A stretch of DNA of 36,352 nucleotides from a bacterium. Its GTDB lineage: Bacteria; Patescibacteriota; Minisyncoccia; Phycocordibacterales; GCA-002787175. Numbering within the stretch: position 1 is the first letter of the stretch; each line of letters opens with the position of its first letter. The notes below the pieces were generated by a model, which searched no databases, was not told where the DNA came from, and worked only from the letters and a program-made list of their open reading frames with translations. Shown here piece by piece: positions 1,872 through 30,481 of this stretch. A program made the translations under genes and the position numbers. The DNA lies in assembly GCA_030699905.1 (NCBI GenBank), contig JAUYKQ010000004.1, positions 1-36,352 on the forward strand. Direction: 5' to 3'.

Positions 1872-1911
1872 AGCCACTTTCTGATAGGTGTGAGTGGTTA
1901 TCTTTTTTGAG

Positions 1912-1941
1912 TTGACAAATAGTTGTTCAGTGTGGTATTTT
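1912..1941 (+). promoter_or_regulatory. promoter of the second small membrane protein
   Basis: TTGACA (1912-1917), 18-base spacer, TATTTT (1936-1941). The ATG at 1961 is preceded by AGAAAGGA (1948-1955). Confidence 0.65.
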
Positions 1942-1960
1942 AGATTCAGAAAGGAAACTT

Positions 1961-2179
1961 ATGGAATTGTTTACAGAAAGGGAAAGAAGAGAAATCGAGA
2001 GAATTCTAAAGGAAGACCAAGAAGGCGTGCGAAGAGAAGTGAAAAGGCAGGAAATCCTGGCGAAAATCGGACTCTTCGGCCGAGTCCTTATAAACGTATT
2101 ATTCGTCATGACAGTATGCTCAATTTTCCTCGTGGCCATTCTCTCCCTTCTAAAGGTCATTTCGATCCTTTTGAGGTAA
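1961..2179 (+). CDS. small charged-helix protein with C-terminal membrane segment (paralogue of 988-1182)
   Basis: 72 residues. The first 30 form a charged helix (TERERREIERILKEDQ) and the rest are hydrophobic (about 38-70), long enough for one or two membrane passes. Aligned without gaps, its N-terminal half shares T, R, E, R, I, D, Q, E, E and L positions with the protein at 988-1182. It has its own TTGACA promoter and a canonical Shine-Dalgarno site. A longer overlapping frame on this strand (from 1894) runs through the terminator and antisense to the next gene, so it is not used. Function unknown. Confidence 0.7.
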   Translation: MELFTERERREIERILKEDQEGVRREVKRQEILAKIGLFGRVLINVLFVMTVCSIFLVAILSLLKVISILLR

Positions 2180-2204
2180 CACCAGAATTTGCGCAGAAAA
2201 CCGA

Positions 2205-2234
2205 AATCTTGTCGCTTGGCCGGCAAGATTTTTT
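2205..2234. terminator. bidirectional terminator between convergent genes
   Basis: AATCTTG / CAAGATT with inner CGC..GCC pairing, followed by TTTTTT on the plus strand and preceded by AAAA, so it can serve both the plus-strand small gene and the minus-strand membrane protein. Confidence 0.7.
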
Positions 2235-2753
2235 CTATCCGAAATTATCGGCCATGACTTTCCCTGTCGCGATTGAAAACGATTTTATCAAAACCAGAAA
2301 AGACAGAGCTACCGCAAACCAAATGTCGGCTCCGCGAGTGGCAAATCCAACCGCGATAGCCAAAAGAATAACCCAAGAACCCATAATGTACCCCGCGACA
2401 TGAGTACTTCGCAAAACATCCGCCTTTCCGAAAACGAGAACCTCTTCCTGCCAAACAAAAAGAGTCCAGACGCTCCAGATAAGAAAAGCCGCTATAAGAG
2501 CCAGATTTCCCAAAAACTCCGGCATGGCTATTTCAAGCGGGTTTGAAATAAAAATCAAAATAGCCGAAAGCGCAAGCGACAAAAGACATTCCACGGAAGA
2601 ATAAACGGCCTTTGCCATATTCACCAAAAAACTCCAACCGCTTGATAGTCGGGATTTCCATGAAACCGAAATATTCAAAAACTCTTTTAGAGAAACTTTG
2701 CTCTTTTCAAAGTTGTCTGCTATAAGAGTTTGGCTTTTGTCTGAAATTCTCAT
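2235..2753 (-). CDS. hypothetical multi-pass membrane protein
   Basis: 172 residues. A cytoplasmic-looking N-terminal part of about 45 residues is followed by four likely membrane segments (about 53-72, 80-100, 121-138 and 144-162). The start ATG is the only good one and is preceded on its strand by an A/T-rich run without a Shine-Dalgarno site. Upstream there is a tandem 10-mer (TTTAACTACC twice, 2781-2800), which could be an operator or part of a promoter. It is a single gene between two plus-strand units. No family recognised. Confidence 0.7.
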   Translation of the reverse strand: MRISDKSQTLIADNFEKSKVSLKEFLNISVSWKSRLSSGWSFLVNMAKAVYSSVECLLSLALSAILIFISNPLEIAMPEFLGNLALIAAFLIWSVWTLFVWQEEVLVFGKADVLRSTHVAGYIMGSWVILLAIAVGFATRGADIWFAVALSFLVLIKSFSIATGKVMADNFG

Positions 2754-2806
2754 AAAAAAATTTTATTGATTTCTTAAACTTTTAACTACCTTTAACTACC
2801 ATTTTA

Positions 2807-2835
2807 CTTACAGCGCATGAAAAAATGGTGATAAT
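2807..2835 (+). promoter_or_regulatory. candidate upstream promoter of infC operon
   Basis: CTTACA (2807-2812), 17 bases, GATAAT (2830-2835). A second possible -10, TATGGTA, lies at 2934-2940 just before infC. Confidence 0.4.
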
Positions 2836-2865
2836 GTTTTCTAAAACCGGCTTCAAACTTTTGAA

Positions 2866-2909
2866 AACGGACGAGCTGTATCAACAGGTATTGATACAGC
2901 TCGTCCGTT
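2866..2909 (+). promoter_or_regulatory. 19-bp perfect hairpin in infC leader (possible attenuator)
   Basis: Left arm 2866-2884 and right arm 2891-2909 are perfect complements (AACGGACGAGC...GCTCGTCCGTT) with a 6-base loop. It lies between the distal candidate promoter and infC. The following bases (AAAAAATTGCTTTT) are a poor U tract, so it is either an inefficient terminator or an attenuator. infC-rpmI-rplT leaders are known to be controlled by L20 in other bacteria; whether that holds here is not shown. Confidence 0.5.
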
Positions 2910-2970
2910 AAAAAATTGCTTTTATTTTACTTGTATGGTAAACTCTTCCCATAAGTAATCTTATTATCCC

Positions 2971-3480
2971 TTGAGTCAAAAAGTCAGAATAAACCATCAG
3001 ATACGGGCCAAAGAACTCCGGGTTATAAGCTCCACGGGAGAAAATTTGGGTCTCTTGTCTCTTCAGGACGCTCTTCGCAAAGCCGAAGAGGATGGGCTGG
3101 ATTTGATAGAGATTTCGCCCAACTCTCCGGAGCCGGTGGCTAAGATAATGGATTACGGCAAGTATCAGTACGAGGAGAACAAAAAGACAAAGGCCTCAAG
3201 ATCAAAAAGCCGGAACGCGGAAATAAAAAGCATTCAAATTAAAATAGGCACGGGCGAACACGATTTGGAATTAAAGGCCAAAAAGGCCTCAGAGTGGCTT
3301 CAGGAAGGGCATAGGGTCAAAGTAGAGCTTTTCCTTTCAGGCAGAGCCAAATACATGGACCCAAAGTTTCTCTCTGAAAGGTTGGAGCGAGTTCTTCGTT
3401 TTATTTCCGAAGAATACAAAATCGCCGAACCGCTAAAGAGAGGGCCAAAGGGACTGACGGTGATAATAGAGAGAAGTTAG
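2971..3480 (+). CDS. infC: translation initiation factor IF-3
   Basis: IF-3 binds the 30S subunit, keeps it apart from 50S and checks the start codon and initiator tRNA. The protein of 169 residues has the N-domain (INHQIRAKELRVIS, residues 7-20, then GENLGLLSLQDAL) and the C-domain with the basic K..EIKSIQIK strand (about 83-93) and HDLELKAKKASEWL. The length is normal. The start is a TTG at 2971 with no Shine-Dalgarno site; an in-frame stop lies 15 bases upstream. Rare start codons are typical for infC because IF-3 represses its own translation from them. First gene of infC-rpmI-rplT. Confidence 0.95.
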   Translation: MSQKVRINHQIRAKELRVISSTGENLGLLSLQDALRKAEEDGLDLIEISPNSPEPVAKIMDYGKYQYEENKKTKASRSKSRNAEIKSIQIKIGTGEHDLELKAKKASEWLQEGHRVKVELFLSGRAKYMDPKFLSERLERVLRFISEEYKIAEPLKRGPKGLTVIIERS

Positions 3481-3538
3481 TAAGCGTACAGCGTTTAGCG
3501 TATGTAAATACTTTTTACTGAACGCTTAACGCTAAAAT
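3481..3538 (+). repeat. infC-rpmI spacer palindrome (GTAGCG/TAGCGT family)
   Basis: AGCGTTTAGCGT and ACGCTTAACGCT are near-perfect complements around a TGTAAATACTTTTTACTGA loop. It is built of the same TAGCGT words as the rplP-rpsC spacer at 24030-24136. The end of the stem lies 6-8 bases before the rpmI ATG and could mask it. Confidence 0.6.
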
Positions 3539-3718: not shown

Positions 3719-3832
3719 AACTCAAATGGTCTCGAAATAGGCGCGAGTACGCGCCTCCCGAATCAATCACGAATCTAATGTTAGGGAAAATTAGGGAGAA
3801 AATTCGGGATTGATTAGAGACCAAATAATCAT
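3719..3832 (+). promoter_or_regulatory. rpmI-rplT spacer with mutually exclusive helices (candidate L20 control site)
   Basis: A GGCGCG/CGCGCC hairpin (3740-3755) lies inside a long-range helix TGGTCTC (3727-3733) with GAGACCA (3817-3823). Two further pairings share bases and exclude each other: CCCGAAT (3757-3763) with ATTCGGG (3802-3808), or AATCAATC (3761-3768) with GATTGATT (3808-3815). The second brings pairing close to the rplT start. Such a switch would suit autogenous control by L20, which binds folded mRNA of this operon in studied bacteria. This is inference from the sequence. Confidence 0.45.
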
Positions 3833-18383: not shown

Positions 18384-18474
18384 ATTTGGCTAAACGTCCG
18401 CCTATACCGGAAATATTCCGATATGCTCCGGCGGATGCTGTTTTAAAAAAATTCTATTACAAACTATATGTCTG

Positions 18475-19653: not shown

Positions 19654-19992
19654 TTAAAACGACAGTCCGGCTTCTCGGGCGCCTTCCGCCACCGCCTTTA
19701 CATTTCCAGCGAATTTATAACCGCTCCTGTCAAACACGACTTTTTTGTGTCCTTTTTTCACCGCTTCAGAGGCGATTGCTTTTCCCACACCTTTGGCTAT
19801 TTCCATTTTTTTACCCTTTGAACCTCGTGAAGAGGCGGATCCCAAAGTTACTCCCTTTTCGTCATCAATAAGTTGAGCGGAAATGTATTTATTGGACCTA
19901 AACACGGAAAGTCGCGGACGGTTTGCGTCCCCTTTTACTTTGGCGCGTATGCGCTTGTGTCTGGTTATTCTGTTTTCGGAATTAGATTTCAT
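19654..19992 (-). CDS. rplR: 50S ribosomal protein L18
   Basis: 112 residues; 5S rRNA-binding protein. Basic start [20 protein letters not shown], then [17 protein letters not shown] and the end [26 protein letters not shown]. Normal length. The spacer to rplF carries a palindrome. Confidence 0.96.
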
Positions 19993-20094
19993 TAAATTAG
20001 TTATTCAAGTTCATAAAGTTTATAAATTATTTGTCTCTTTGGTTTTGCTTTATGGACTTTATGGACTTGATTGACTTTACAAACTTTTAACTCT
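19993..20094 (-). repeat. rplF-rplR spacer palindrome (ACTTTATGR family)
   Basis: Left arm (minus-sense 3' side) TTCAAGTTCATAAAGTTTAT; right arm TTTATGGACTTTATGGACTT. Arms are made of the 9-mer ACTTTATGG/ACTTGATTG; loop contains TATTTGTCTCTTTGG. Confidence 0.7.
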
Positions 20095-20631
20095 TTATGC
20101 CGTTTTCTTGCCTTCTTTCCTTCTCACCACTTCGTCTGAGTAATGAATACCTTTGCCTTTATACGGTTCCGGTTTTTTCTTGGCTCTCACCCTGGCGCTC
20201 CAAGAACCGACTTCCTCTTTATCAATTCCGCTTATGGAAATAATATTTTTCTCAACAGAAATCTTCAAAGTGTCAGGTATCGGTACCTTGACCTGATGAG
20301 AAAAACCAAGCCCCATGACAAGGTCTTTGCCTTTTACCTCCGCCCTATATCCCACGCCTTCCAGAATGAGTTTCTTTTCATAAGGAGTGTTTACGCCCTT
20401 AATCATGTTTTTGATGTGAGAAGCGTAAGTTCCCCAAAGAGCTCTTGTTTCTATAGAATCGCTATTTGGCGTCAAGACGACTTGTTTGTCTCGGCTAACC
20501 ACGGAAATTTTGCCCGTCTTGAATTCACGCGCCAGAGTTCCCCCAGGCCCTTTGACTGTAACATTTCCACCCGAAATGGATATTTCGGTTTTATCGGGAA
20601 TGTCTATTGGTTTTTTGCCTATGCGTGACAT
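20095..20631 (-). CDS. rplF: 50S ribosomal protein L6
   Basis: 178 residues. SRIGKKPIDIPDKTEI start, VTVKGPGGTLAREF (about 28-41), then the second domain ending KPEPYKGKGIHYSDEVVRRK, the L6 signature. Normal length. Translation start without Shine-Dalgarno; the spacer upstream contains the longest ACTTTATGR palindrome. Confidence 0.97.
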   Translation of the reverse strand: MSRIGKKPIDIPDKTEISISGGNVTVKGPGGTLAREFKTGKISVVSRDKQVVLTPNSDSIETRALWGTYASHIKNMIKGVNTPYEKKLILEGVGYRAEVKGKDLVMGLGFSHQVKVPIPDTLKISVEKNIISISGIDKEEVGSWSARVRAKKKPEPYKGKGIHYSDEVVRRKEGKKTA

Positions 20632-20772
20632 AAATAATTATATAAAGTATTCGGATCTTGTCTTGGTTTTACTTGATGGACTTTATGAACTTTACGGACT
20701 TTCTGGACTTTATGGACTTTCTGACTTGATGAACTTGATGAACTTTATGAACTTGTTGGACTTTTTAACTCT
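20632..20772 (-). repeat. rpsH-rplF spacer palindrome (ACTTTATGR family), longest copy
   Basis: Runs of ACTTTATGA, ACTTTCTGG, ACTTGATGA repeated about ten times (20670-20765). The block TTGTCTTGGTTTTACTTGATGG and its flanks (20650-20690) are almost identical to 21203-21245, so spacers share sequence. The partner arm is short here, so slippage of the repeat arm is likely. Confidence 0.7.
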
Positions 20773-21159
20773 TTACCATATTCCAAACAACGACTCTCCC
20801 CCGATCTTTTCTTTCCGCGCTTCTTTATCTGTCTTTAAACCTTTTGAAGTGGAGATAATAACGCTTCCGTAACCGCTCTTTATGGAACGTATATTTCGGC
20901 TTCTCTCATATATTCTTTTTGAAAGTTTGGAAATTCTTTTCACTCCGCTTATGGCCGGAGAACCGTCCACGTACTTAAGCTCCACCTCTATTGCCCGAAT
21001 GACTTTTTTGCCCTTTTTTGAAAAGTCGGAAATAAAACCTTCTTTTTTCAAAACCTCCATTATTGAGCAAGCTATTTTTGAATACGGAAAAACGGCAGTG
21101 GCCTTTCCGGCATTGCTTGCATTTTTTAGACCGATGATTATGTTTGAAATTGAGTCCAT
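20773..21159 (-). CDS. rpsH: 30S ribosomal protein S8
   Basis: 128 residues. DSISNIIIGLKNASNAGK start; middle LKYVDGSPAISGVKRISK; end VIISTSKGLKTDKEARKE. S8 binds central 16S rRNA and in E. coli regulates the spc operon. Here it is downstream of rpsN in the usual order. Confidence 0.96.
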   Translation of the reverse strand: MDSISNIIIGLKNASNAGKATAVFPYSKIACSIMEVLKKEGFISDFSKKGKKVIRAIEVELKYVDGSPAISGVKRISKLSKRIYERSRNIRSIKSGYGSVIISTSKGLKTDKEARKEKIGGESLFGIW

Positions 21160-21264
21160 TAAATTAGTTCTTCAAGTTCATAAAGTTTAAAGTTTATAAA
21201 GTATTCGGCTCTTGTCTTGGTTTTACTTGATGGACTTTATGAACTTTATTGACTTTTGACTTCT
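21160..21264 (-). repeat. rpsN-rpsH spacer palindrome (ACTTTATGR family)
   Basis: CAAGTTCATAAAGT on the left pairs with ACTTTATGAACTTT on the right around a loop with TATTCGGCTCTTGTCTTGG. Confidence 0.75.
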
Positions 21265-21450
21265 TTACCAAGACGACTTCTTCACTCCCGGAACCATTCC
21301 GTTGTTTGCAAATTCCCTAAAGCAAATCCTGCATAGACCGAAGTCGCGCATGAAAGCTCGTTTTCTACCGCAACGGAAACAGCGCCGCACTATACGGGAG
21401 CTATACTTGGGCTTCTTTACTGAACGCGCTATTACTGATTTTTTGGCCAT
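21265..21450 (-). CDS. rpsN: 30S ribosomal protein S14, zinc-binding type
   Basis: 61 residues from the ATG at 21450 ([15 protein letters not shown]); the frame continues upstream but the family starts here. Two CxxC pairs (CFRCG and CRICF) make it the C+ short form with a zinc ribbon. Located between rplE and rpsH as expected. Confidence 0.95.
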
Positions 21451-21569
21451 AAATAAAATTAGAATCAGGAACCAGAAGTTAAAAATCAAATCTTTTCCCT
21501 TGACCCCATATTCTGCTTCTTAATTCTTTCAAAGGAATATTACCAACAAAAAACCCTTAAGTCAAACTA

Positions 21570-22109
21570 TTATTTTGACTCTTTGGCAAACGGAATGCCG
21601 ATTTCTCTAAAGAAGCTTTCGGCTTCCTCTTTTGACTTTGCCGTGGTTACCACAGTCACGCCAAAACCAAAAACATCTTTTAATTCTTCGTCGCTTGTTT
21701 CCGGAAAGACGGTATGCTCCAATATCCCGAAAGTGGCATTGCCCATGTCGTCTATGGAGGAAACCTTCACTCCGCGAAAATCCTTGGTCCTTGGAAAGGC
21801 GACAGAAATCATTTTGTCCAAAAAACCGTACATGCGGTTACCTCGTAAAGTTACCTGTATGCCCACAGGATCACCTTCTCTGACTTTGAAAGAAGCTATT
21901 GATTTTTTGGCGCCTCGGACAGCCGCTTTCTGGCCCGTGATTTTCGCTATTCTGTCTTCAACCACTTCGTTTTTCTTTTTATCCTTGAAAGAACCGGTGC
22001 CGGCGTTTATGACAACCTTAACAAGACGCGGCGCCTGCATCGGATTTTTATAGCCAAACTTGTCTTTGAGTTTGGCAAAAGCATTTTTCTGTTTTTCCTT
22101 TGTGTTCAT
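21570..22109 (-). CDS. rplE: 50S ribosomal protein L5
   Basis: 179 residues; binds 5S rRNA. PMQAPRLVKVVINAGTG (about 22-38), ITGQKAAVRGAKKSIASFK (about 57-75), REGDPVGIQVTLRGNRMY and the end FGVTVVTTAKSKEEAESF. Normal length. Confidence 0.97.
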   Translation of the reverse strand: MNTKEKQKNAFAKLKDKFGYKNPMQAPRLVKVVINAGTGSFKDKKKNEVVEDRIAKITGQKAAVRGAKKSIASFKVREGDPVGIQVTLRGNRMYGFLDKMISVAFPRTKDFRGVKVSSIDDMGNATFGILEHTVFPETSDEELKDVFGFGVTVVTTAKSKEEAESFFREIGIPFAKESK

Positions 22110-22142
22110 AGTATATAGCGTGAAACTGTTATTTTTTAGACA

Positions 22143-22442
22143 TTATATGGCCTTGCCGCTTTTTCTGCTTATTCTTAACTTTTTACCATCGGCCAGTTTG
22201 TATCCCACCCTTACCGGTTTACCGTCTTCTAAAAGAGACACGTTGGACACATGAATAGGCATCGGCACATCTATTATCTGTCCCTTTTCCCCGGTTTTTT
22301 TGGCTCGTCGGTGGCGTTTGGCGATGTTTATTCCTGAAACCAGAACTTTATCAATAGGGGACAAAACAGCATCAACCTTTCCGGTCTTGCCTTTATCTTT
22401 GCCCGTACGGACTATTATAGTGTCTCCTTTTTTTATTTTCAT
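22143..22442 (-). CDS. rplX: 50S ribosomal protein L24
   Basis: 99 residues from the ATG at 22442 (MKIKKGDTIIVRTGKDKG), a KOW motif at the start. Then VLVSGINIAKRHRRAKKTGEKG. An earlier in-frame Met (22469) lies within the spacer palindrome and is not used. Confidence 0.95.
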   Translation of the reverse strand: MKIKKGDTIIVRTGKDKGKTGKVDAVLSPIDKVLVSGINIAKRHRRAKKTGEKGQIIDVPMPIHVSNVSLLEDGKPVRVGYKLADGKKLRISRKSGKAI

Positions 22443-22570
22443 AAGATTTAGTTTATCAAGTCCTATCAAGTGGAAAGTTCTTAAAGTATTCCAAATTTGC
22501 CTTACCTGATGGGACTTTATGCACTTTATGACTTGATGAACTTGATGAACTTCTTGATGGACTTTTAACT
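22443..22570 (-). repeat. rplN-rplX spacer palindrome (ACTTTATGR family)
   Basis: TTTATCAAG..CAAGTGG..AAAGTTC opposite ACTTTATGCACTTTATGACTTGATGAAC (in parts); loop TATTCCAAATTTGCCTTACC. Same orientation as the other copies. Confidence 0.7.
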
Positions 22571-22942
22571 CTACACGATTTCAGCCGCCTTTGAGCTAAT
22601 CGTCTGGTAACCGAACTCGGCCATTTCTCTCGGAATCGGACCGAAAATTCTTCCGGCTATCGGCTCCTTTTTTCCTTTTTCCAAAATCACGACGGAGTTT
22701 TCATCGAAACGTATATATGAACCGTCACGGCGCCTGAAAGGTTTGCGCTGTCTTACAACCACCGCGTGAACCACGTCTTTTTTCTTTATGGTTTTGCGCG
22801 GTTCGCTTTTCTGAACGGAAAGAACGACCAATTCACCTATTTCGGCGTATCTTTTCTTGGACCCTCCCAGTATCTTAAAAATACGCCCGATTTTGGCGCC
22901 TGAATTGTCGGCTATTTTTACGATGGAACGTGGTTGAATCAT
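22571..22942 (-). CDS. rplN: 50S ribosomal protein L14
   Basis: 123 residues. MIQPRSIVKIADNSGAKIG start, VVRQRKPFRRRDGSYIRFD middle, EKGKKEPIAGRIFGPI end: all L14 hallmarks. Normal length of 122-123. Confidence 0.97.
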   Translation of the reverse strand: MIQPRSIVKIADNSGAKIGRIFKILGGSKKRYAEIGELVVLSVQKSEPRKTIKKKDVVHAVVVRQRKPFRRRDGSYIRFDENSVVILEKGKKEPIAGRIFGPIPREMAEFGYQTISSKAAEIV

Positions 22943-23022
22943 AAGATTAGTTCGTCAAGTTTATCAAGTTGAAAGTTCTTAAAGTATTCCGACTTTGTCT
23001 TACTTTACGGACTTTATAGACT
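22943..23022 (-). repeat. rpsQ-rplN spacer palindrome (ACTTTATGR family)
   Basis: TCGTCAAGTTTATCAAGTTG against ACTTTATAGACTTTATGGAC; loop TATTCCGACTTTGTC. Confidence 0.7.
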
Positions 23023-23286
23023 TTATGGACTTTTAACTTTGAAACGCTTATCCTTTGACACCGGTTTGCATTCTTCTATATCTACTTTCTCTTCCACTTT
23101 TTTGGTATTTCCGGCATCGTGTACTTTGTAGCGCTTTGTTATTTTTCGGTATTTTTTATATCTCAAATGTTTTACATACCTCGTAACCTCCACCACGATA
23201 GTATCTTTCATTTTGTCGGAAACGACCACACCGGAAAGACGGCGGGGTTTTCTGTTGGCTTGCGTATTGTGAGTGGTTGAATTCAT
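23023..23286 (-). CDS. rpsQ: 30S ribosomal protein S17
   Basis: 87 residues from the ATG at 23286; a longer frame from 23361 is outside the family. RRLSGVVVSDKMKDTIVVEV (about 15-34), KYRKITKRYKVHDAG and the end CKPVSKDKRFKV are typical. Basic. Between rpmC and rplN. Confidence 0.95.
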   Translation of the reverse strand: MNSTTHNTQANRKPRRLSGVVVSDKMKDTIVVEVTRYVKHLRYKKYRKITKRYKVHDAGNTKKVEEKVDIEECKPVSKDKRFKVKSP

Positions 23287-23376
23287 ATTTTTTAGCTTGT
23301 AGCGGGCGATAATGAAGATTTTACCCGGGAACCCGTCGCCTATGCCGAAGAGTTGATTCAAAACGGGTCGTTACGA

Positions 23377-23568
23377 TTAGACGTTTCTCTGTCTCTCATT
23401 TAAAGCCGTCAATATCCTTGCCACGTCTTTTCTCACAGCTCGGCCGTTTCTTACATTTTTTATCTTACTGCCGGTCATATCAAAACGAAACTTGCGAAGC
23501 TCGTCTCGCTTCGCTTTAAGCTCTTTTAGCAGGTCGTTTTCCGTTTTTTTAGTTAATGATGAAGACAT
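23377..23568 (-). CDS. rpmC: 50S ribosomal protein L29
   Basis: 63 residues from the ATG at 23568 (MSSSLTKKTENDL). Coiled helices: LLKELKAKRDELRKFRFDM, then KNVRNGRAVRKDVARILTAL as in L29. Order rplP-rpmC-rpsQ is standard. Confidence 0.93.
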   Translation of the reverse strand: MSSSLTKKTENDLLKELKAKRDELRKFRFDMTGSKIKNVRNGRAVRKDVARILTALNERQRNV

Positions 23569-23609
23569 GTTCAGGAGATACACTACAATAAAAGGTCTGA
23601 AAACGCAAA

Positions 23610-24029
23610 TTACACTCTGGCCACTATTTTGGTCTTTACGGGAAGCTTGGTGCCGGCTTTACGCAAAACTTCCCTTGCTTGCGCTTCAGCGACGCCATCC
23701 ACTTCAAAAATCACTCGACCGGCAAGTATCTGGACTTGATATCCCTGCACGTCGCCTTTACCTTTGCCAAGTTTTACTTCGGCTGGCTTTTGGGTAAAAG
23801 GCATATCGGGAAAAACGCGTATCCAGACCCTTCCGGTTTTTCCGAGAGAGCGAGTCATGGCCTTTCTGGCCGCTTCAATCTGATTTGACCGCACCCGAAC
23901 CGCTTCCACGGCTTTAAGGCCGAAAGAACCGAAATTGATTTCCGTTCCTCTGGTAGCCACAGCCGGACGCTTTGGATTGCGCCTCATAGTGTGCCATTTT
24001 CTGAATTTTACTTTTTTGGGGAATAACAT
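23610..24029 (-). CDS. rplP: 50S ribosomal protein L16
   Basis: 139 residues. FPKKVKFRKWHTMRRNPK start; GLKAVEAVRVRSNQIEAARK (about 37-56), RVWIRVFPDMPFTQKPAEVK, GKGKGDVQGYQVQILAGRV. Ordinary for the family. Confidence 0.97.
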   Translation of the reverse strand: MLFPKKVKFRKWHTMRRNPKRPAVATRGTEINFGSFGLKAVEAVRVRSNQIEAARKAMTRSLGKTGRVWIRVFPDMPFTQKPAEVKLGKGKGDVQGYQVQILAGRVIFEVDGVAEAQAREVLRKAGTKLPVKTKIVARV

Positions 24030-24136
24030 ATTCGTGTAGCGTGTAGCGTGTAGCGTGTAGCGTCAGAGTATTTCTTTTCCGGCGTTACACGTTACAAGTT
24101 ACACGTTGTATATTATGGCGTTACAAGTTCCATGTT
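24030..24136 (-). repeat. rpsC-rplP spacer palindrome (GTGTAGC family)
   Basis: TGTAGCG repeated about four to five times (24036-24062) against GTTACACGTTACAAGTTACA; loop AGTATTTCTTTTCC. Ends next to the rplP start. Same words as the infC-rpmI spacer (3481-3538). Confidence 0.7.
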
Positions 24137-24811
24137 CTATGATTTTCGCTGGTTCTTATCAGCGAAAATCTCTCCCTTATATATCCAGACCTTTATCCCG
24201 ATATCGCCGTAAGGCATATGGGCCTTTTCGCGGGCAAACTCAATATTGGCTCTAAATGTCTGAAGCGGTATTCGTCCTTTTTTTAACTCTTCGGAACGAG
24301 CCATTTCCGCTCCACCTAAACGACCACCAAGATATATTTTTACCCCTTTAACGTCTCTGTTGGCCATTACCTTTTCAATGGTTTGTTTCAAAACCCTGCG
24401 AAACGTCATGCGTTTTTCAAGCGCCTCCGCCACCATCTGAGAAACAATGGCCGCGTTTGACTCCGGCGACCGAACTTCTTCTATGTCAATTTTTAATTGT
24501 TCCGGTATGTTTATCTTTTTTCGGGCCACAAAAGAAAGAAGGTCATTTCTAAGCTTTATCGCCCCTTCTCCGCTTCTGCCTATGATAATTCCCGGACGGG
24601 AAGTTCTTATTATGATTCTTAAAGTTTTTTCGCTTCTTTCTATTTCCACTTCACTTATGTAAAGCCCGCGAAGACGCTTGTCTAAATACTCCCTAATGGT
24701 AATGTCTGATTTTAGAAAGTCGCTATATTTGCCTTTCACGCCAAACCATCGGGATTTCCAATCCCTGATAATTCCCAAACGGTGTGAATATGGATGAACG
24801 GTGTGTGACAT
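24137..24811 (-). CDS. rpsC: 30S ribosomal protein S3
   Basis: 224 residues from the ATG at 24811 (MSHTVHPYSHRLGIIRDW). N-terminal KH-type domain with SRPGIIIGRSGEGA (GxxG loop), C-terminal VKIYLGGRLGGAEMARSE and PYGDIGIKVWIYKGE. Normal length. Confidence 0.97.
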   Translation of the reverse strand: MSHTVHPYSHRLGIIRDWKSRWFGVKGKYSDFLKSDITIREYLDKRLRGLYISEVEIERSEKTLRIIIRTSRPGIIIGRSGEGAIKLRNDLLSFVARKKINIPEQLKIDIEEVRSPESNAAIVSQMVAEALEKRMTFRRVLKQTIEKVMANRDVKGVKIYLGGRLGGAEMARSEELKKGRIPLQTFRANIEFAREKAHMPYGDIGIKVWIYKGEIFADKNQRKS

Positions 24812-24917
24812 AATCATGTAACATGTAACTTGTAACATTGAACATTTTAAGAAAGAAGCGGATAAAGTCCTGTCTTAATTCTTTTGTGTTCCATGTTTCG
24901 TGTTACATGCTTCGTTA
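24812..24917 (-). repeat. rplV-rpsC spacer palindrome (TGTAACATG family)
   Basis: ATGTAACATGTAACTTGTAA opposite GTTCCATGTTTCGTGTTACA with a loop GATAAAGTCCTGTCTTAA. Member of the same group as 24030-24136. Confidence 0.65.
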
Positions 24918-25247
24918 TCACTTTGGTTTTGTATCCAAAACCAAAGTGATGTTACTTGTCCTCTTCTTTATAACATTTGCCGACCCTCGCGCCCGCGGAG
25001 CCGTTCTTCTTAAAACGGTTCCTCCGTTTACCGTAATATCTTTTACAAAAAATTCTGAAATTTCGCCTTTTTCTTTGCCGGAATTGGCAATGGCGGATTT
25101 CAAAAGTTTGTTTATCGGGTCGCAAGCGACTTTACCTCCAAAAGAAAGAATCTGTAAGGCATCGGCGACTTTTTTACCCCTTACCATATCTGCCACAAGG
25201 CGGACTTTTCGGGGAGATTGTCGGTGGTTGTTTAGAATTGCTTTCAT
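24918..25247 (-). CDS. rplV: 50S ribosomal protein L22
   Basis: 109 residues. NNHRQSPRKVRLVADMVRGK (about 6-25), then INKLLKSAIANSGK and the extended beta loop RTAPRARGSANVIKKRTSNI (about 80-100). Standard L22. Confidence 0.96.
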   Translation of the reverse strand: MKAILNNHRQSPRKVRLVADMVRGKKVADALQILSFGGKVACDPINKLLKSAIANSGKEKGEISEFFVKDITVNGGTVLRRTAPRARGSANVIKKRTSNITLVLDTKPK

Positions 25248-25347
25248 GGGATATATAATGCGAACCTGCGAATTATGCGAATACTACGAATAAGAAGAAG
25301 GTTTTCGTAGTATTCGCATATCGTTCGTAGTATTTGGATTATATTTA
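25248..25347 (-). repeat. rpsS-rplV spacer palindrome (TGCGAATACTACG family)
   Basis: GCGAACCTGCGAATTATGCG and GAATACTACGAATAAGAAGA on the left, TTTTCGTAGTATTCGCATA and TTCGTAGTATTTGG on the right (25257-25341). Confidence 0.75.
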
Positions 25348-25689
25348 TTATTTCTTTCCTTCTGCCGCCGATTTAGCCGACTGCGCCGCCGCTATTTCGG
25401 CCTCTTTGGCTTTCTGCTCCTGATCTTTTTGCATTTTTCCTCCGTGTTTTATGAATTTGCGAGTCAAGGAAAATTCGCCCAAACGGTGTCCAACCATGTC
25501 TTCAGTGACTAAGACCTCCGGAAAATCCTTGCCATTATGCACTAAAAACTTGAAACCGACCATTTCAGGAGAAATAACCGAAGCGCGAAGCCAAGTTTTT
25601 ATAGGAGGCGTGTTGTCCGGTTTTTTGCCCTCTATCTTTTTTGTGATACGAGGGTCAACAAACGGACCTTTGGATAGCGACCTTGTCAT
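25348..25689 (-). CDS. rpsS: 30S ribosomal protein S19 with Ala/Lys-rich tail
   Basis: 113 residues, longer than the usual 91-93. S19 core: [56 protein letters not shown]. The last 25 or so residues ([20 protein letters not shown]) are an Ala-rich extension of unknown role. Confidence 0.96.
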
Positions 25690-25766
25690 GGTAAAACAAA
25701 AACTGCAAAGCAGTTAAGCTCCAATATTAACAGAACTCAAAGCAAAGTCAAGGCGCGTAAGCAAAA

Positions 25767-26609
25767 CTACTTATTTTTACCTACTTTTCGGCGAGAAACA
25801 ATAAATACATTTGAGTATTTCTTTGGAGTCCTGGTCTTTTGGCCTTTTCCTGTGGGCTTGCCCCACATACTTTTGGCACGGCGAGTGCCTCTTCCTTGTC
25901 TGCCTTCGCCTCCGCCATGGGGATGGTCAACGGGATTCATGGCCGTACCGCGAACAGTGGGGCGTATTCCCATCCAACGCGATTTGCCGGCCTTGCCGTA
26001 ATTTACGAGCCAATGTTCAATATTACCGACCTGCCCCACACAGGCAAAACATTCGGCAGAGACCTTTCTTATTTCAGTTGAAGGCATTTTAAGATGAGTG
26101 AAACCGGCATCTTGAGCCACTACCGCGGTAAATATTCCGGCGCTTCTGGCTATTTTGGCGCCATTTCCGGGTTTTAACTCAATATTGTAGACAAAAGTTC
26201 CTACGGGAATATTTTTCAAAGCCAAGCGATTGCCGGGTTTTATTTCAGCTTTTTCCGCCACAATAAAAGAGTCGCCGGGTTTGGTATCATGTGGCACAAC
26301 AACATAACGATATTCTCCGTCCCGATAAGAAGCCAGTCCTATAAACGCGCTCCTGTTGGGGTCATATTCTATTGTTTTTATAACCGCCGGAATATTCTTT
26401 TTGTCATAGACAAAATCAATGTCTCTGAAAAGACGTTTGTTGCCTCCGCCCTTGTGTCTTGTCGTGATACGACCGTGGTTGTTTCTGCCCACTGATCGTT
26501 TAAAACCGGAAGTCAGTTTTTTAAACGGTTTTCCAGTCGTAAGAATCTTCCTATAGGGAAGGGTTGTCATGTGGCGACGTGATGCGGTTGTTGGTTTGTA
26601 TTTCTTCAT
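25767..26609 (-). CDS. rplB: 50S ribosomal protein L2
   Basis: 280 residues; peptidyl-transferase-centre protein. GFKRSVGRNNHGRITTRHKG (about 36-55), DPNRSAFIGLASYRDGEYRY, and RGTAMNPVDHPHGGGEGRQG (about 219-238). Standard length. Confidence 0.97.
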   Translation of the reverse strand: MKKYKPTTASRRHMTTLPYRKILTTGKPFKKLTSGFKRSVGRNNHGRITTRHKGGGNKRLFRDIDFVYDKKNIPAVIKTIEYDPNRSAFIGLASYRDGEYRYVVVPHDTKPGDSFIVAEKAEIKPGNRLALKNIPVGTFVYNIELKPGNGAKIARSAGIFTAVVAQDAGFTHLKMPSTEIRKVSAECFACVGQVGNIEHWLVNYGKAGKSRWMGIRPTVRGTAMNPVDHPHGGGEGRQGRGTRRAKSMWGKPTGKGQKTRTPKKYSNVFIVSRRKVGKNK

Positions 26610-26708
26610 ATTAAATCTATAATGCGAACCTGCGAATTATGCGAATACTACGAACAAGAAGAGGGCTTTCGTAGTATTCGCATATTGTTCGTAGTATTCG
26701 CATTATAT
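26610..26708 (-). repeat. rplW-rplB spacer palindrome (TGCGAATACTACG family)
   Basis: TAATGCGAACCTGCGAATTA, GCGAATACTACGAACAAG opposite CTTTCGTAGTATTCGCATAT, GTTCGTAGTATTCGCATTAT (26620-26705). Confidence 0.75.
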
Positions 26709-27071
26709 TTACACGACTTCTATCTTATCCCCCTTCTTTAAATAAACATACGCTTTCTTTATGGCGGCGGTTCTGCCACTTTTACCGCGGACAAAAACTT
26801 TTTTGCCCGGCAATTTTACTACGCGAACCTTCGCCGGTATCACTTTGTAAAGGGCCGATACCGCGCGGGAAACGTCATGTTTTGTGGCTTTCGGCTGTAC
26901 TTCAAAAGCGTAGGCATTGCTATCCGCCAAAATAGCTCCTTTTTCGGTAATCCTCGGACGAATTAAAATACTCTCCAAATTGACGCGTGTGGGAATATCA
27001 CGCCTCGCCTTTACGGCAACGGCTTTGTTTTCGCCCTTTTTCTCTTCGGTTTTTTTAGTGAAAAATGACAT
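26709..27071 (-). CDS. rplW: 50S ribosomal protein L23
   Basis: 120 residues. The core RPRITEKGAILADSNAYAFEV (in part) and the end AAIKKAYVYLKKGDKIEV match the family. The first 25 or so residues (KKTEEKKGENKAVAVKARRD) are an added basic-acidic N-terminal extension. Three bases separate it from rplD. Confidence 0.94.
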   Translation of the reverse strand: MSFFTKKTEEKKGENKAVAVKARRDIPTRVNLESILIRPRITEKGAILADSNAYAFEVQPKATKHDVSRAVSALYKVIPAKVRVVKLPGKKVFVRGKSGRTAAIKKAYVYLKKGDKIEVV

Positions 27072-27074
27072 AAA

Positions 27075-27737
27075 TTAAAGTTTACTTTCCAGAAACTTAA
27101 AGGCCTCCTCCGGTTTTACAAAAACAATATATTTTGCTGAAAGTATGTCAAGCGGATTTATGTTTCGCAACTCATCCACGCGCAAAGAACCTATGTTTGA
27201 AAAACTCTTCTCAACCGCTTCCGCCTTTTCCGGAATAGCGATGTAAGCGGCATTTTTCTTCTTTGATGAAAGTTTTTCCACTCCCGAAATTGAGGATAGC
27301 GAGTTTATAATTTTCTTGGCTTCTTTGGTCTTGGGTTCACTTATTAAAATATTATCAACTAAAACCAGTTCATTTTCTTTAAATTTCCGAGATAAAATCA
27401 CATAAAGAGCTTTGGCTTTCATTTTTTTACTGACCTTTCTCGTGTAATTTTTCTCGTTGCGAGGCCCATGGGTAACTCCTCCTCCAACCCACAAAGGAGA
27501 ACGGCGAGAACCGTGGCGCGCCCGGCCTGTGCCTTTTTGCTTCCAAGGTTTTTTCCCCGTGCCTCTTACTTCGCCTCGTGTTTTGGCGTGAGCCGTGCCG
27601 GAACGGGCGGAAGAAGCCATGGAAGTCGCGACTTGATGGACCAAATCGGCATTCCACTTCACGCCAAAAACCGACTCGGGTAAAGTTATTTTCCCGACTT
27701 GTTTTCCGATTTGGTTGTAAATGATTGATTCCATCAA
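27075..27737 (-). CDS. rplD: 50S ribosomal protein L4
   Basis: 220 residues. The long conserved loop KKPWKQKGTGRARHGSRRSP (about 62-81) and VGGGVTHGPRNE identify it. In E. coli L4 also represses its own operon. Two adjacent Met codons at the start (27737 and 27734); either may be used. Confidence 0.96.
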   Translation of the reverse strand: MMESIIYNQIGKQVGKITLPESVFGVKWNADLVHQVATSMASSARSGTAHAKTRGEVRGTGKKPWKQKGTGRARHGSRRSPLWVGGGVTHGPRNEKNYTRKVSKKMKAKALYVILSRKFKENELVLVDNILISEPKTKEAKKIINSLSSISGVEKLSSKKKNAAYIAIPEKAEAVEKSFSNIGSLRVDELRNINPLDILSAKYIVFVKPEEAFKFLESKL

Positions 27738-27824
27738 ATTAGTTTATCAAGTTATAAAGTTGCAAGTTTATAAAGTATTCGTCTCCATGTTTTACTTGAT
27801 GAACTTTATGAACTTGACTAACTT
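27738..27824 (-). repeat. rplC-rplD spacer palindrome (ACTTTATGR family)
   Basis: TATCAAGTTATAAAGTTGCA opposite ACTTGATGAACTTTATGAAC; loop TATTCGTCTCCATG. Confidence 0.75.
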
Positions 27825-28436
27825 TCAACTTCTTATCTCCACCAACGTTCCTCTCCTGCCCGGCACGGCTCCTTTTATAAGAATGAGGTTGTTCTCGGCG
27901 TCAACTTGCACTATTTTCAAATTCTTGACTGTTACTCTATCCCCTCCCATTCGTCCGGCCATGCGCATTCCCTTTGGCACACGGGTGCGCAGACCTCCTC
28001 CTATGGAACCCGGCTCTCTTTCAGAATGTTTTTGACCGTGCGTTCGTCGGCCTCCCGCAAAGCCGTGCCTTTTAACCACACCCTGGAATCCTTTGCCTTT
28101 GGATATGGCGGAAACGGTCACAACATCACCGACGGCAAAAACGTCCGCTTTTATAATATCGCCACGTTTTTCTTTGGCCGGTTCGGAAAGGCGATTTTCT
28201 TTGACAAATTGAGGAACCGGGATTTCTTTAAAATGCCCCTTTTCGGATTTGCTCGCCCTTTTCTCTTTTTTTGCTCCAAAACCAACCTGGACGGCGTTAT
28301 AACCATCTCTTTCAACCGTTTTTGTGTCAGTAACGACAATAGGCCCGGCAGAAATAACCGTTACCGGCAAGGCCTGTCCGTCATCGGAGAAGACCTGCGA
28401 CATATTAACCTTTGTACCTAAAATAAACTTAGACAT
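27825..28436 (-). CDS. rplC: 50S ribosomal protein L3
   Basis: 203 residues. FILGTKVNMSQVFSDDGQALPV at the start, GKGFQGVVKRHGFAGGRRTH (about 114-133) and SIGGGLRTRVPKGMRMAGRM later: the L3 signature. It leads its own transcription unit here, since rpsJ is cut off by a terminator 264 bases upstream. Confidence 0.97.
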   Translation of the reverse strand: MSKFILGTKVNMSQVFSDDGQALPVTVISAGPIVVTDTKTVERDGYNAVQVGFGAKKEKRASKSEKGHFKEIPVPQFVKENRLSEPAKEKRGDIIKADVFAVGDVVTVSAISKGKGFQGVVKRHGFAGGRRTHGQKHSEREPGSIGGGLRTRVPKGMRMAGRMGGDRVTVKNLKIVQVDAENNLILIKGAVPGRRGTLVEIRS

Positions 28437-28521
28437 GTAAATTTTTGAACGTGCGCCCTATGGGCGGCGCAGAGGTTCCATAACATTCGTAAACATTCGG
28501 CCAGAACGCAATGAAGAGAAC

Positions 28522-28548
28522 ATTATCAGATATGGCAAAAAAAGTCAA
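28522..28548 (-). promoter_or_regulatory. candidate promoter of the rplC-led ribosomal unit
   Basis: TTGACT (minus strand, 28548-28543), 15 bases, GATAAT (28527-28522). The roughly 80-base leader to rplC includes the hairpin GCGCC..GGCGC (28454-28471). In the 302 bases 28437-28738 I see only this, the rpsJ terminator and no gene. Confidence 0.45.
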
Positions 28549-28699
28549 AATTTTTATGCATACCATGTTACATCCCCAACACCAATTTTATGAGGTAAGG
28601 TTATGTATTATTTAACTTTGAGAGTAAGTGCATGCAGACAAGATATGTTGTTTCCGGATTTGAGTGAAAGTGGCGATAGATTTTTAAAAATATAGTCGT

Positions 28700-28727
28700 A
28701 AAAAAAGCTGTTGACCAGCTTTTTTTA
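28700..28727. terminator. terminator between rpsJ and rplC
   Basis: AAAAAAAGCTG / CAGCTTTTTTT around TTGAC; T run on both strands. It follows rpsJ by about 12 bases. Confidence 0.75.
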
Positions 28728-28738
28728 ATATTTATTCT

Positions 28739-29101
28739 CTACAACATTTTTACGTCAATGTTTACTCCGGAAGGCAGAGAAAGATTCGTAAGCGCCTCTA
28801 TTACCTTTGCTCCGGGATTTATGATGTCTATTAGGCGTTTATGCACACGCATCTCAAACTGTTCTCTTGAGTTTTTGAAAACAAAAGAAGCACGATTGAC
28901 TGTGTACTTTTTTATTTCCGTAGGAAGAGGAATGGGGCCGAGAACTTCCGCGTCAAAGCGCAAGGCGGTATCCATTATCTGCTTTACGGACGCGTCAAGG
29001 ATTTTGTGCTCATAAGCTCGGGCGCGAATGCGAAGCTTTGAAACAGCATCCGCTTTGGCGACGACTTTGACGCTCTTCTTTTTTGTGGTGGATTTAACCA
29101 T
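28739..29101 (-). CDS. rpsJ: 30S ribosomal protein S10
   Basis: 120 residues; usual length 102-105. The first 20 residues ([20 protein letters not shown]) are an added basic extension. Core: [53 protein letters not shown] and the end [12 protein letters not shown]. Follows tuf. Confidence 0.95.
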
Positions 29102-29290
29102 TGTAAATCTATAATGCGAACCTACAAATTATGCTAATACTACGTAAATCTATAATGCGAACCTACGAATTATGCGAATACTACGGAAATCTATAATGCG
29201 AACCTACGAACTATGCGAATACTACGAATAAGAAGAAGGTTTTCGTAGTATTCGCATATAGTTCGTAGTATTCGGATTATATTCAGGTTG
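29102..29290 (-). repeat. tuf-rpsJ spacer with three 41-bp left arms
   Basis: The 41-base unit that begins AAATCTATAATGCGAACCTA starts at 29105, 29146 and 29187, three tandem copies, then one right arm TTCGTAGTATTCGCATATAG (29241-29280). In the other spacers of this family there is one left arm. A tandem repeat of this sort is expected to vary in number between strains. Confidence 0.85.
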
Positions 29291-30481
29291 CTACGCAACG
29301 ACTTTGGTGACTACTCCCGCTCCCACCGTCTTGCCTCCTTCACGGACGGCAAAACGCTGTTTTTCTTCCAAAGCGACAGGGGCGACAAGTTTTACCTTGA
29401 AAGTGATAGTGTCTCCGGGCATAACCATTTCTTTGCCTTCAGGCAAAGAAACTTCTCCGGTAACATCCGTTGTGCGGATGTAAAATTGCGGTTTGTAGCC
29501 GGTAAAGAACGGAGTGTGACGACCGCCTTCTTCTTTTTTCAAGACATAAACTTCAGCTTCAAATTCCGTGTGGGGTGTAACAGAGCCGGTCTTGGCCAAA
29601 ACCTGTCCTCGGTGAACGTCTTCTTTCTTGGTTCCGCGAAGCAATACTCCGGCGTTGTCTCCGGCCATGCCTTCCTGCAACGATTTGTTAAACATTTCTA
29701 TGCCCGTAACGGTGGTTTTGGATGTCGGCTTGATACCGACTATTTCAACTTCCTCGCCGACCTTAACAACTCCTCTTTCAATACGGCCTGTAACTACAGT
29801 ACCGCGACCTTCAATGGAGAAAATGTCTTCAATGGGCATAAGGAACGGTTTTTCAACGTCTCTTACGGGCTGTGGTATGTATGTATCAAGCGCGCTTGCG
29901 AGTTCAAGCACTTTCTTTGACCATTCGTCGTCGTTATTTGGCGATTCAAGCGCTTTCAAAGCGGAACCTCGTATAACCGGCGCGGTCTTTCCGTCAAATT
30001 CGTATTTGTCCAAAAGCTCTCGCACTTCCTCTTCAACGAGGTCAATAAGGTCCGTTTCCGGTACCATGTCGCATTTGTTTAAAAATACGATTATTTTAGG
30101 AACACCTACTTGTTTTGCAAGCAGTATATGCTCTCTGGTCTGAGGCATAACGCCGTCCGTGGCGGCAACCACCAAAACCGCGCCGTCCATCTGGGCCGCG
30201 CCGGTAATCATGTTTTTGATGTAATCGGCGTGACCCGGAGCATCTATGTGCGCGTAGTGGCGAGCATCCGTTTCGTACTCGTTGTGCGAAAGAGCTATGG
30301 TAATACCACGAGCTTTCTCTTCCGGAGCCGAGTCAATCTGATCAACACCTCGGAGTTTTACGTTCTGGCCGGCGCGATTTAATACATTCAGTATCGCGGC
30401 GGTAAGAGTCGTTTTGCCGTGGTCAACGTGGCCTATTGTGCCGACGTTTACGTGCGGCTTGCTTCTATCAAAATCTGCCAT
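29291..30481 (-). CDS. tuf: elongation factor Tu
   Basis: 396 residues. GTPase that brings aminoacyl-tRNA to the ribosome. G1 GHVDHGKTT (about 18-26), G3 in [10 protein letters not shown] (Ala in place of the common Cys), G4 NKCDM (about 134-138), G5 GSALKAL (about 172-178). The C-terminal domains are complete, including [16 protein letters not shown]. It lies upstream of rpsJ with a 189-base spacer. rpsL, rpsG and fusA are not next to it in this window. Confidence 0.98.

Follow-up and report, generated by a model that had tools for sequence, protein, structure and literature searches.

Palindromic repeats built of short degenerate words in the ribosomal gene spacers of a Patescibacteria genome

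Several kinds of dispersed palindromic repeats are known from bacterial genomes. Repetitive extragenic palindromes (REPs) and bacterial interspersed mosaic elements (BIMEs), with the REP-associated tyrosine transposase (RAYT), are described (PMC3733652) as many-copy intergenic palindromes that lie mainly between co-directional or convergent genes and sometimes inside genes; the REP unit measures 20-40 bp and bears a GTAG or CGTC tag. Prokaryotic miniature inverted-repeat transposable elements (MITEs) and the Rickettsia palindromic elements are, according to PMC10969869, palindromes of about 100-150 nt that form several families per genome and may be inserted in frame into protein genes. Finally, the TAACTGA heptamers of the Beggiatoaceae are 7-nt words that, according to PMC4679880, lie near start codons, also within ribosomal protein operons, and are nearly all direct repeats of one word with no predicted RNA structure. 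Their patchy spread suggests transfer, with no known mechanism, and a section title of the same paper has canonical ribosome-binding sites as rare in this family. The elements described here lie in the spacers of a ribosomal protein gene run on contig C4 of genome G000, which is 98.9% complete; this stretch, 36,352 bases long, is called the window. The genome is that of a Taylorbacteria-like member of the Patescibacteria, and the best named matches of the S3 protein from the window are Candidatus Taylorbacteria and other Paceibacteria. Two further genomes, G001 (the sister species) and G002, belong to the same genus.

It is fairly probable that these spacers hold small non-coding palindromic repeats that are dispersed, spread, inherited and exchanged, and that are tolerated rather than kept as mRNA stems with a job to do. 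The elements belong to multi-copy families, their positions turn over between species, they gain and lose sequence in units of a word, their orientation is biased, and signals of a role on the mRNA strand are lacking. The run is on the minus strand, in the order tuf-rpsJ-rplC-rplD-rplW-rplB-rpsS-rplV-rpsC-rplP-rpmC-rpsQ-rplN-rplX-rplE-rpsN-rpsH-rplF-rplR-rpsE-rplO-secY. Twenty window proteins were checked against NCBIfam, where L23 and L35 score below the cut-offs and the rest pass one; rpsE, rplO, rplE, rpmC and rplP are named from synteny, whereas ftsZ, trxB, gatC, gatA, mnmA and the alpha-operon genes were named by eye. A word-built element occupies 11 of the 21 spacers from tuf to secY: family A in six, family B in three and C-type words in two. 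The elements measure 80-140 nt, the word length being 9 nt for A, about 17-20 nt for B and 7 nt for C, and a fourth family, D, is present elsewhere in the window. Nineteen of the 21 spacers were folded, each against 100 dinucleotide shuffles (two were too short), and the resulting z scores are given with the features below, together with the state of the same junction in G001 (matching over aligned bases).

19993-20094, minus strand: A element, rplF-rplR spacer; z -3.9; matches profile A; same spacer in G001, 80/93.
20632-20772, minus strand: A element, rpsH-rplF spacer; z 0.4; profile A at 20640-20702 and 20722-20765; same spacer in G001, 62/76.
21160-21264, minus strand: A element, rpsN-rpsH spacer; z -2.1; matches profile A; the query that matches 27/197 genomes.
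22443-22570, minus strand: A element, rplN-rplX spacer; z -4.2; matches profile A; G001 has 2 nt here.
22943-23038, minus strand: A element, rpsQ-rplN spacer (22943-23022); z 0.4; profile A at 22944-23038; same spacer in G001, 75/80.
27735-27829, minus strand: A element, rplC-rplD spacer (27735-27824, profile A match to 27829); z -4.7; G001 90/90 identical.
25251-25347, minus strand: B element, rpsS-rplV spacer; z -7.6; matches profile B; the junction carries a C element in G001.
26610-26710, minus strand: B element, rplW-rplB spacer; z -7.7; matches profile B; the G001 spacer is 38 nt.
29102-29290, minus strand: tuf-rpsJ spacer; z -5.4; full B copy at 29189-29285, partial B copies at 29108-29145 and 29148-29187.
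24030-24136, minus strand: C element, rpsC-rplP spacer; z -3.4; matches profile C; 30 matches in the own genome; the junction carries a D element in G001.
24812-24917, minus strand: C-like words (TGTAACA), rplV-rpsC spacer; z -5.1; the G001 spacer is 45 nt and does not fold.
3719-3832, plus strand: D element, rpmI-rplT spacer; z -4.6; same spacer in G001, 104/113; another G001 copy at rpsC-rplP.
3481-3538, plus strand: short palindrome with AGCGTNY words (by eye), infC-rpmI spacer; z -3.3.
18384-18474, minus strand: palindrome outside the named families, rplO-secY spacer; z -3.9; G001 has 6 nt.

A preliminary description of the window had reported palindromes of degenerate short repeats in most spacers of the run. 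This observation is partly confirmed: it is real and somewhat overstated, "most" standing for 11 of 21 spacers. The proposed excess of folding over dinucleotide shuffles is present in eight of the 11 elements, and these are eight of the nine folded spacers with z below -3, the ninth being rplO-secY. In the six spacers assigned to A the words are present throughout, and the excess is found in rplF-rplR, rplN-rplX and rplC-rplD, while rpsN-rpsH is marginal and rpsH-rplF and rpsQ-rplN, though both A members, fold no better than their shuffles. At rpsH-rplF the 5′ word array is long and the 3′ arm shortened; at rpsQ-rplN the element extends into the end of rpsQ, the stop codon of which falls within a repeat word. 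The three spacers said to share the B sequence do so as 97-nt copies that are 93-94% alike (E 2.8e-35 and 5.5e-38 between copies). By contrast, the grouping of three spacers under TGTAGCG or TGTAACA words is borne out by the C profile for rpsC-rplP alone; rplV-rpsC has similar words and gives no match to the C profile, and infC-rpmI is built of other words. On the two strands of the element spacers z is similar, or lower on the non-coding strand, with rplN-rplX and rpsS-rplV (coding strand slightly lower) as exceptions.

Intrinsic terminators are rejected, in line with the absence of a T run reported before: none of the 31 terminator-like sites detected lies within an A, B or C spacer, and one such site on the non-coding strand covers the end of rplV and extends 2 nt into the rplV-rpsC spacer. 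A ribosomal protein leader or other known RNA family is likewise rejected, as the run (19900-29400) gives only microRNA matches far under their gathering scores and no bacterial family in Rfam. The window as a whole matches only tmRNA in that database, at 1-141, where the 3′ part of the tmRNA gene lies at the contig end. Within the run, the coding 3′ ends of rpsC (24141-24170) and rplV (24918-24949) form perfect hairpins, the latter spanning the stop codon and the former also recognisable in G001 and in a third relative (L137). The element-free spacers rplE-rpsN (21537-21565) and rplB-rpsS (25724-25751) show promoter-like TTGACT..TG-TAATAT on the coding strand, the total count of such sites being no higher than in shuffles.

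The families are not confined to this run. In the own genome, B gives 33 two-strand matches, or 13 places after merging of neighbouring fragments; C gives 30 matches (40 of 41 candidates scored), nine of them at least 94 nt long at 88-100%; and a D search gives four. In 267,289 bases (267 kb) of G000, many of which are stretches picked for repeats, the profiles find 28 places for A, 12 for B and 18 for C. Elements also lie in the alpha operon (rpmJ-rpsM, rpsK-rpsD, rpoA-rplQ and rplQ-rplM) and after ftsZ. With respect to co-directional neighbours within 300 nt, the same and the opposite orientation are seen 13 and 3 times for A, 10 and 1 for B, and 11 and 1 for C, taking the best strand per place, some places being fragments of one element. 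The single orientation per family noted earlier holds for the full A and B copies in the window and becomes a strong bias, not a rule, across the genome. A role of A as a DNA uptake word is rejected: ACTTTATGR, the only word examined in this way, has 65 matches in 816 kb against 33 for the reversed word. Two stretches, L082 (G000:C10:1-15000) and L085 (G000:C25:1-10000), hold many A copies and few genes called by the gene finder.

Other palindromes are found beside these families. One family of 140-150 nt, with the ends GAATTACGAAA..TTTCGTAATTC, occurs at 6508-6625 of the window and at many other places in G000, with 74 two-strand matches at no fewer than 40 places (40 of 53 candidates scored) against one in G001 and none in G002; it looks like a recent MITE-like expansion. 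A further family of long palindromes, CTTTGAATTACGAAACTCC..GAGTTTCGTAACTCAAAG, lies at 14159-14447 of the window (map-h3) and at L129:7182-7430.

Comparison with the sister species indicates that positions change while some elements are kept. The ribosomal proteins of G000 and G001 are 69% identical, and 273 of 724 four-fold sites match over 16 genes. At rpsS-rplV, B in G000 faces C in G001; at rpsC-rplP, C faces D; and the A element of rplN-rplX and the B element of rplW-rplB face spacers of 2 and 38 nt, respectively. At rpsS-rplV and rpsC-rplP, L137 has other sequences that are palindromic by eye. In G002, 15 of the 16 junctions seen measure 3-43 nt, and rplE-rpsN measures 413 nt. Seven junctions of G000 and G001 share a recognisable element: rpmI-rplT, rplF-rplR, rpsH-rplF, rpsQ-rplN and rplC-rplD, for which the aligned bases are listed above, ftsZ-trxB (93/107) and gatC-gatA (99/103). 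These shared elements are 82-100% identical, while interior codons for the same residue match at about 0.44; flanking codons are conserved too. Between the two gatC-gatA copies there are four substitutions and two indels, one of 14 and one of 7 nt, each a multiple of the 7-nt word. Both species carry a C-type palindrome within mnmA, translated in frame and strongly diverged between them. It is very unlikely that the spacers reflect an assembly error, since rplC-rplD reads the same over all 90 bases in the G001 assembly.

Some spacers free of A to D are also conserved between the two species (z above 5, both at least 50 nt), namely, L081:5139, L131:9632, L132:11009, which contains rpmJ, and L132:11609. 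The first of these (junction 5139 of L081 in G000, L096 in G001) is an intergenic stretch of 380-396 nt with 266/344 identical bases, and is perhaps an unannotated gene or RNA. Within mnmA itself (L105:1106-2245 in G001, L132 about 1900-3070 in G000), stretches of high and of low conservation between the species form a mosaic.

Counterparts in related genomes, on which the preliminary description had made its reading depend, do exist. In a set of 197 relatives with the own genome included, A is present in 27 genomes, B in five and D in three; as a rule four candidates were scored per genome, and copy numbers are thus lower bounds. Family C was found in three of ten genomes tried. In other genera the A words are kept and the loop differs, and in co-directional settings outside the own genome A has the same orientation 14 times and the opposite one five times.

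A broader view comes from the S10-spc spacers of 96 distinct genomes (the window, 20 and 80 others, after five duplicates were dropped). About half of these 1,473 spacers are shorter than 20 nt, and a small second peak in length lies at 80-100 nt. A spacer was considered palindromic at z below -3 with GU pairs forbidden and 30 shuffles, and the share of such spacers rises with length, from 7/83 at 40-60 nt to 187/374 at 60-350 nt, the range surveyed; at least one is present in 56 of the 96 genomes. Repetition of internal 6-mers beyond shuffles (p<0.05) is seen in 96/187 palindromic spacers against 37/141 of those with z above -2; therefore, word-built palindromes make up about half of the total, and their sequences are many and unrelated. 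A relative in another ribosomal operon spacer of the same genome exists for 95/187 palindromic spacers, as against 18/95 with z above -1, and one in another genome for 112/187 as against 25/95. When seven close genome pairs are excluded, 299 of the 352 pairs of similar spacers between genomes lie at different junctions and 53 at the same junction, where permutation gives 22.4±4.2. Turnover of position dominates, accompanied by some vertical inheritance or site preference. The orientation of the similar spacers is the same in 293 pairs and opposite in 59. As a separate observation, GGAG, AGGA or GAGG shortly 5′ of the start codon is rare in these genomes (3/187 palindromic spacers and 4/234 spacers of 20-60 nt).

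Taken as dispersed repeats, these elements probably behave as follows. Each is an imperfect DNA palindrome with arms made of several degenerate copies of a word specific to its family; several unrelated families coexist in one genome, and some recur across the order. Elements would originate or come in as DNA, settle at gene boundaries and be retained there, the least harmful place. Whole words would be gained or lost within them, and the elements, along with nearby gene ends, would be handed down vertically and would also move between lineages when short DNA tracts are exchanged. We infer that the spread is a DNA-level process resembling transposition or recombination, and that the bias in orientation stems from selection or from the insertion process. 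Possible sources of this bias include selection on the start-codon side, the manner of insertion, and co-orientation with replication. A spreading spacer repeat was among the roles first proposed, and it is the one that the data favour: the families are genome-wide, similar elements occupy different junctions in different species, and sister junctions are empty or differently filled. Several observations weigh against this explanation. No mover was found, in a search restricted to PF01797, and no target-site duplication was seen by eye at rplN-rplX. The sharing of junctions above chance points to elements that are in part vertical or favour certain sites, and the bias in orientation, in G000, in the other genomes and between similar spacers, exceeds what neutral elements need. 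In addition, conservation of the shared elements equals or exceeds that of the synonymous sites beside them, a result that selection would explain as well, and the A arms in other genomes match their own partners better than swapped ones (see below).

An alternative is that the palindromes work as mRNA stems between coding regions, each acting on the genes beside it by way of processing, stability or translation. Several findings are compatible with it, such as the folding of the eight element spacers well below shuffles, the consistent orientation, the identity of shared elements between species near synonymous saturation, and the gap between stem and start codon, with a median of 8 nt against 5 in shuffles. 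Stems working in mRNA are expected to favour G-U over A-C mismatches on that strand. Nevertheless, the single mismatches in sense folds of the 187 palindromic spacers are G-T in 48 cases and A-C in 74 (69 and 43 on the other strand), which is no G-U excess, the base composition (A 0.34, C 0.19, G 0.18, T 0.30) predicting part of the difference. The complement folds more stably than the mRNA strand in 109 spacers and less stably in 63; in shuffles the figures are 122 and 53, and the mRNA strand thus shows no stability beyond composition. Similarly, arms pair with their own partners no better than with swapped ones in C (24 rows, p 0.84, one place being counted twice as L104 lies in L135), in B (9, p 0.43) or in A within G000 (21, p 0.27), in contrast to A over all genomes (44, p 0.0008) and in other genomes only (23 copies, p 0.001). 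The lack of an element, or the presence of a different one, at some of the same junctions in the sister species and the absence of a bacterial Rfam family from the run also argue against such stems. Selection for mRNA stems as the main cause is rejected on the mismatch, strand-stability and arm-swap tests, and these tests give no support to the cutting sites, stability marks and pause or insulation elements suggested at the outset. Functional stems as a general account are improbable, and single elements may have a role of their own.

It is also rather unlikely that the elements are MITEs proper, that is, non-autonomous transposons with terminal inverted repeats and target-site duplications that are moved by a transposase acting in trans. 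They are palindromic, dispersed and intergenic, with an additional in-frame copy in mnmA, and they occur as short non-coding copies with inverted ends in a genome that also carries the 140-150-nt family described above. By contrast, comparison by eye of the filled rplN-rplX junction of G000 with the empty one of G001 gave no target-site duplication, in species too diverged for a firm statement, and the search limited to PF01797 gave no cognate transposase. Arms of tandem words with variable loops are not typical of MITEs, which counts further against this possibility.

The gene ends next to the elements bear on exchange between lineages. Between G000 and G001, same-residue codons near elements match in 26/32 cases over the first eight codons and in 25/32 over the last eight, falling to about 0.4 farther in, whereas other junctions give 15/30 and 17/39. 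When controlled by junction, four of the five junctions with elements in both species fall in the top 0-1.7%, as opposed to none of 11 others. Over 39 syntenic junctions, matches within 12 codons amount to 101/137 at the seven with a shared element and 220/418 at 30 others, with interiors at 0.42-0.47. The junctions rpsC-rplP and rpsS-rplV, where the two species have different elements, were set apart from this comparison and give 36/41. These values come from a signal that was noticed first and tested afterwards, and the choice of junctions by element similarity also favours recent exchange. The conservation of elements and flanks in G000 and G001 would fit short-tract exchange, and is treated as a lead only, because it does not generalise over all genome pairs: similar elements occur at 34 junction pairs, including two of G000 and G001, and the flanks there have no excess (215/436 against 0.44-0.48 in the other classes). 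For the D junction, the excess is not clear (11/18, interior 44/77), and the tracts that look exchanged in mnmA and gatC are not centred on elements.

A bolder proposal is that the palindromes are portable recombination anchors at which incoming DNA would recombine. The element would be converted together with 30-70 nt of the gene on either side, much like the co-conversion seen in homing. The proposal draws on the similar elements at gene junctions in many Patescibacteria species that would be naturally transformable, and if it were true, essential operons would become mosaic at their joints. Natural transformation has been demonstrated in Saccharibacteria (PMC10633639), which are of a different class from G000. 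We regard these anchors as a long shot.

Local duplication and replication slippage within the operon, with no spreading element, is very unlikely. The indels by multiples of a word and the tandem partial B copies in tuf-rpsJ fit it, and local copying, which had been suggested from neighbours within a family, can account for at most a part, as the families also occur outside the run, both in the alpha operon and beside ftsZ and at other places in the genome, and A occurs in other genera across the order.

Least credible of all are REPs moved by a RAYT (Y1_Tnp) transposase. Y1_Tnp (PF01797) is present in 115 of the 197 genomes of the relatives set, more often in those that bear A (23/27, against 92/170 of the others; Fisher p 0.003). 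On the other side, the own genome has no PF01797 match, and none of the 20 Y1_Tnp loci surveyed, which come from 19 genomes with A and include two genes not called by the gene finder, has a match to profile A, B or C, the only ones applied, within 500 nt of the gene. Four of these loci have a match farther off, the nearest being a weak 37-nt C match (529 nt, G042, E 0.0016); in G118, an A match lies 658 nt away. At five (G091, G103, G169, G188 and G195), the same short hairpin stands on both sides of the gene; these hairpins look like ordinary REPs. Some of the 20 genes are presumably IS200-like rather than RAYTs. For A, B and C, movement by RAYT is thus largely refuted, by the lack of an own Y1_Tnp and of elements flanking Y1_Tnp genes.

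Patescibacteria genomes are very small, yet essential operons are here loosened by palindromes of about 100 nt at many joints, in contrast with the tight junctions that G002 keeps within the same genus. The common architecture of several unrelated word families calls for one process that generates them all. Should it be confirmed that species exchange the joints that carry elements, recombination in this uncultured group would become directly accessible to study. In a limited search of the open PubMed Central literature, no account of repeats of this kind turned up for Patescibacteria.

Compared with the systems described at the start, the elements resemble REPs and BIMEs in being many-copy intergenic palindromes with a similar placement relative to genes; unlike REPs, at 80-140 nt they are longer, have arms of repeated words, lie away from the Y1_Tnp genes surveyed, and contain GTAG within the C words as part of a repeated word instead of as an end tag. 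With MITEs and Rickettsia palindromic elements they share size, the coexistence of families and insertion in frame, the last seen in one gene, mnmA of G000 and G001, as a likeness of position; they differ in their word-array arms, in lying in many operon spacers, and in that neither a duplication, by eye, nor a transposase, by PF01797, was found here. The TAACTGA repeats come close to them in word length, placement and patchy spread, and are set apart by their single, directly repeated word, where several words form palindromes here.

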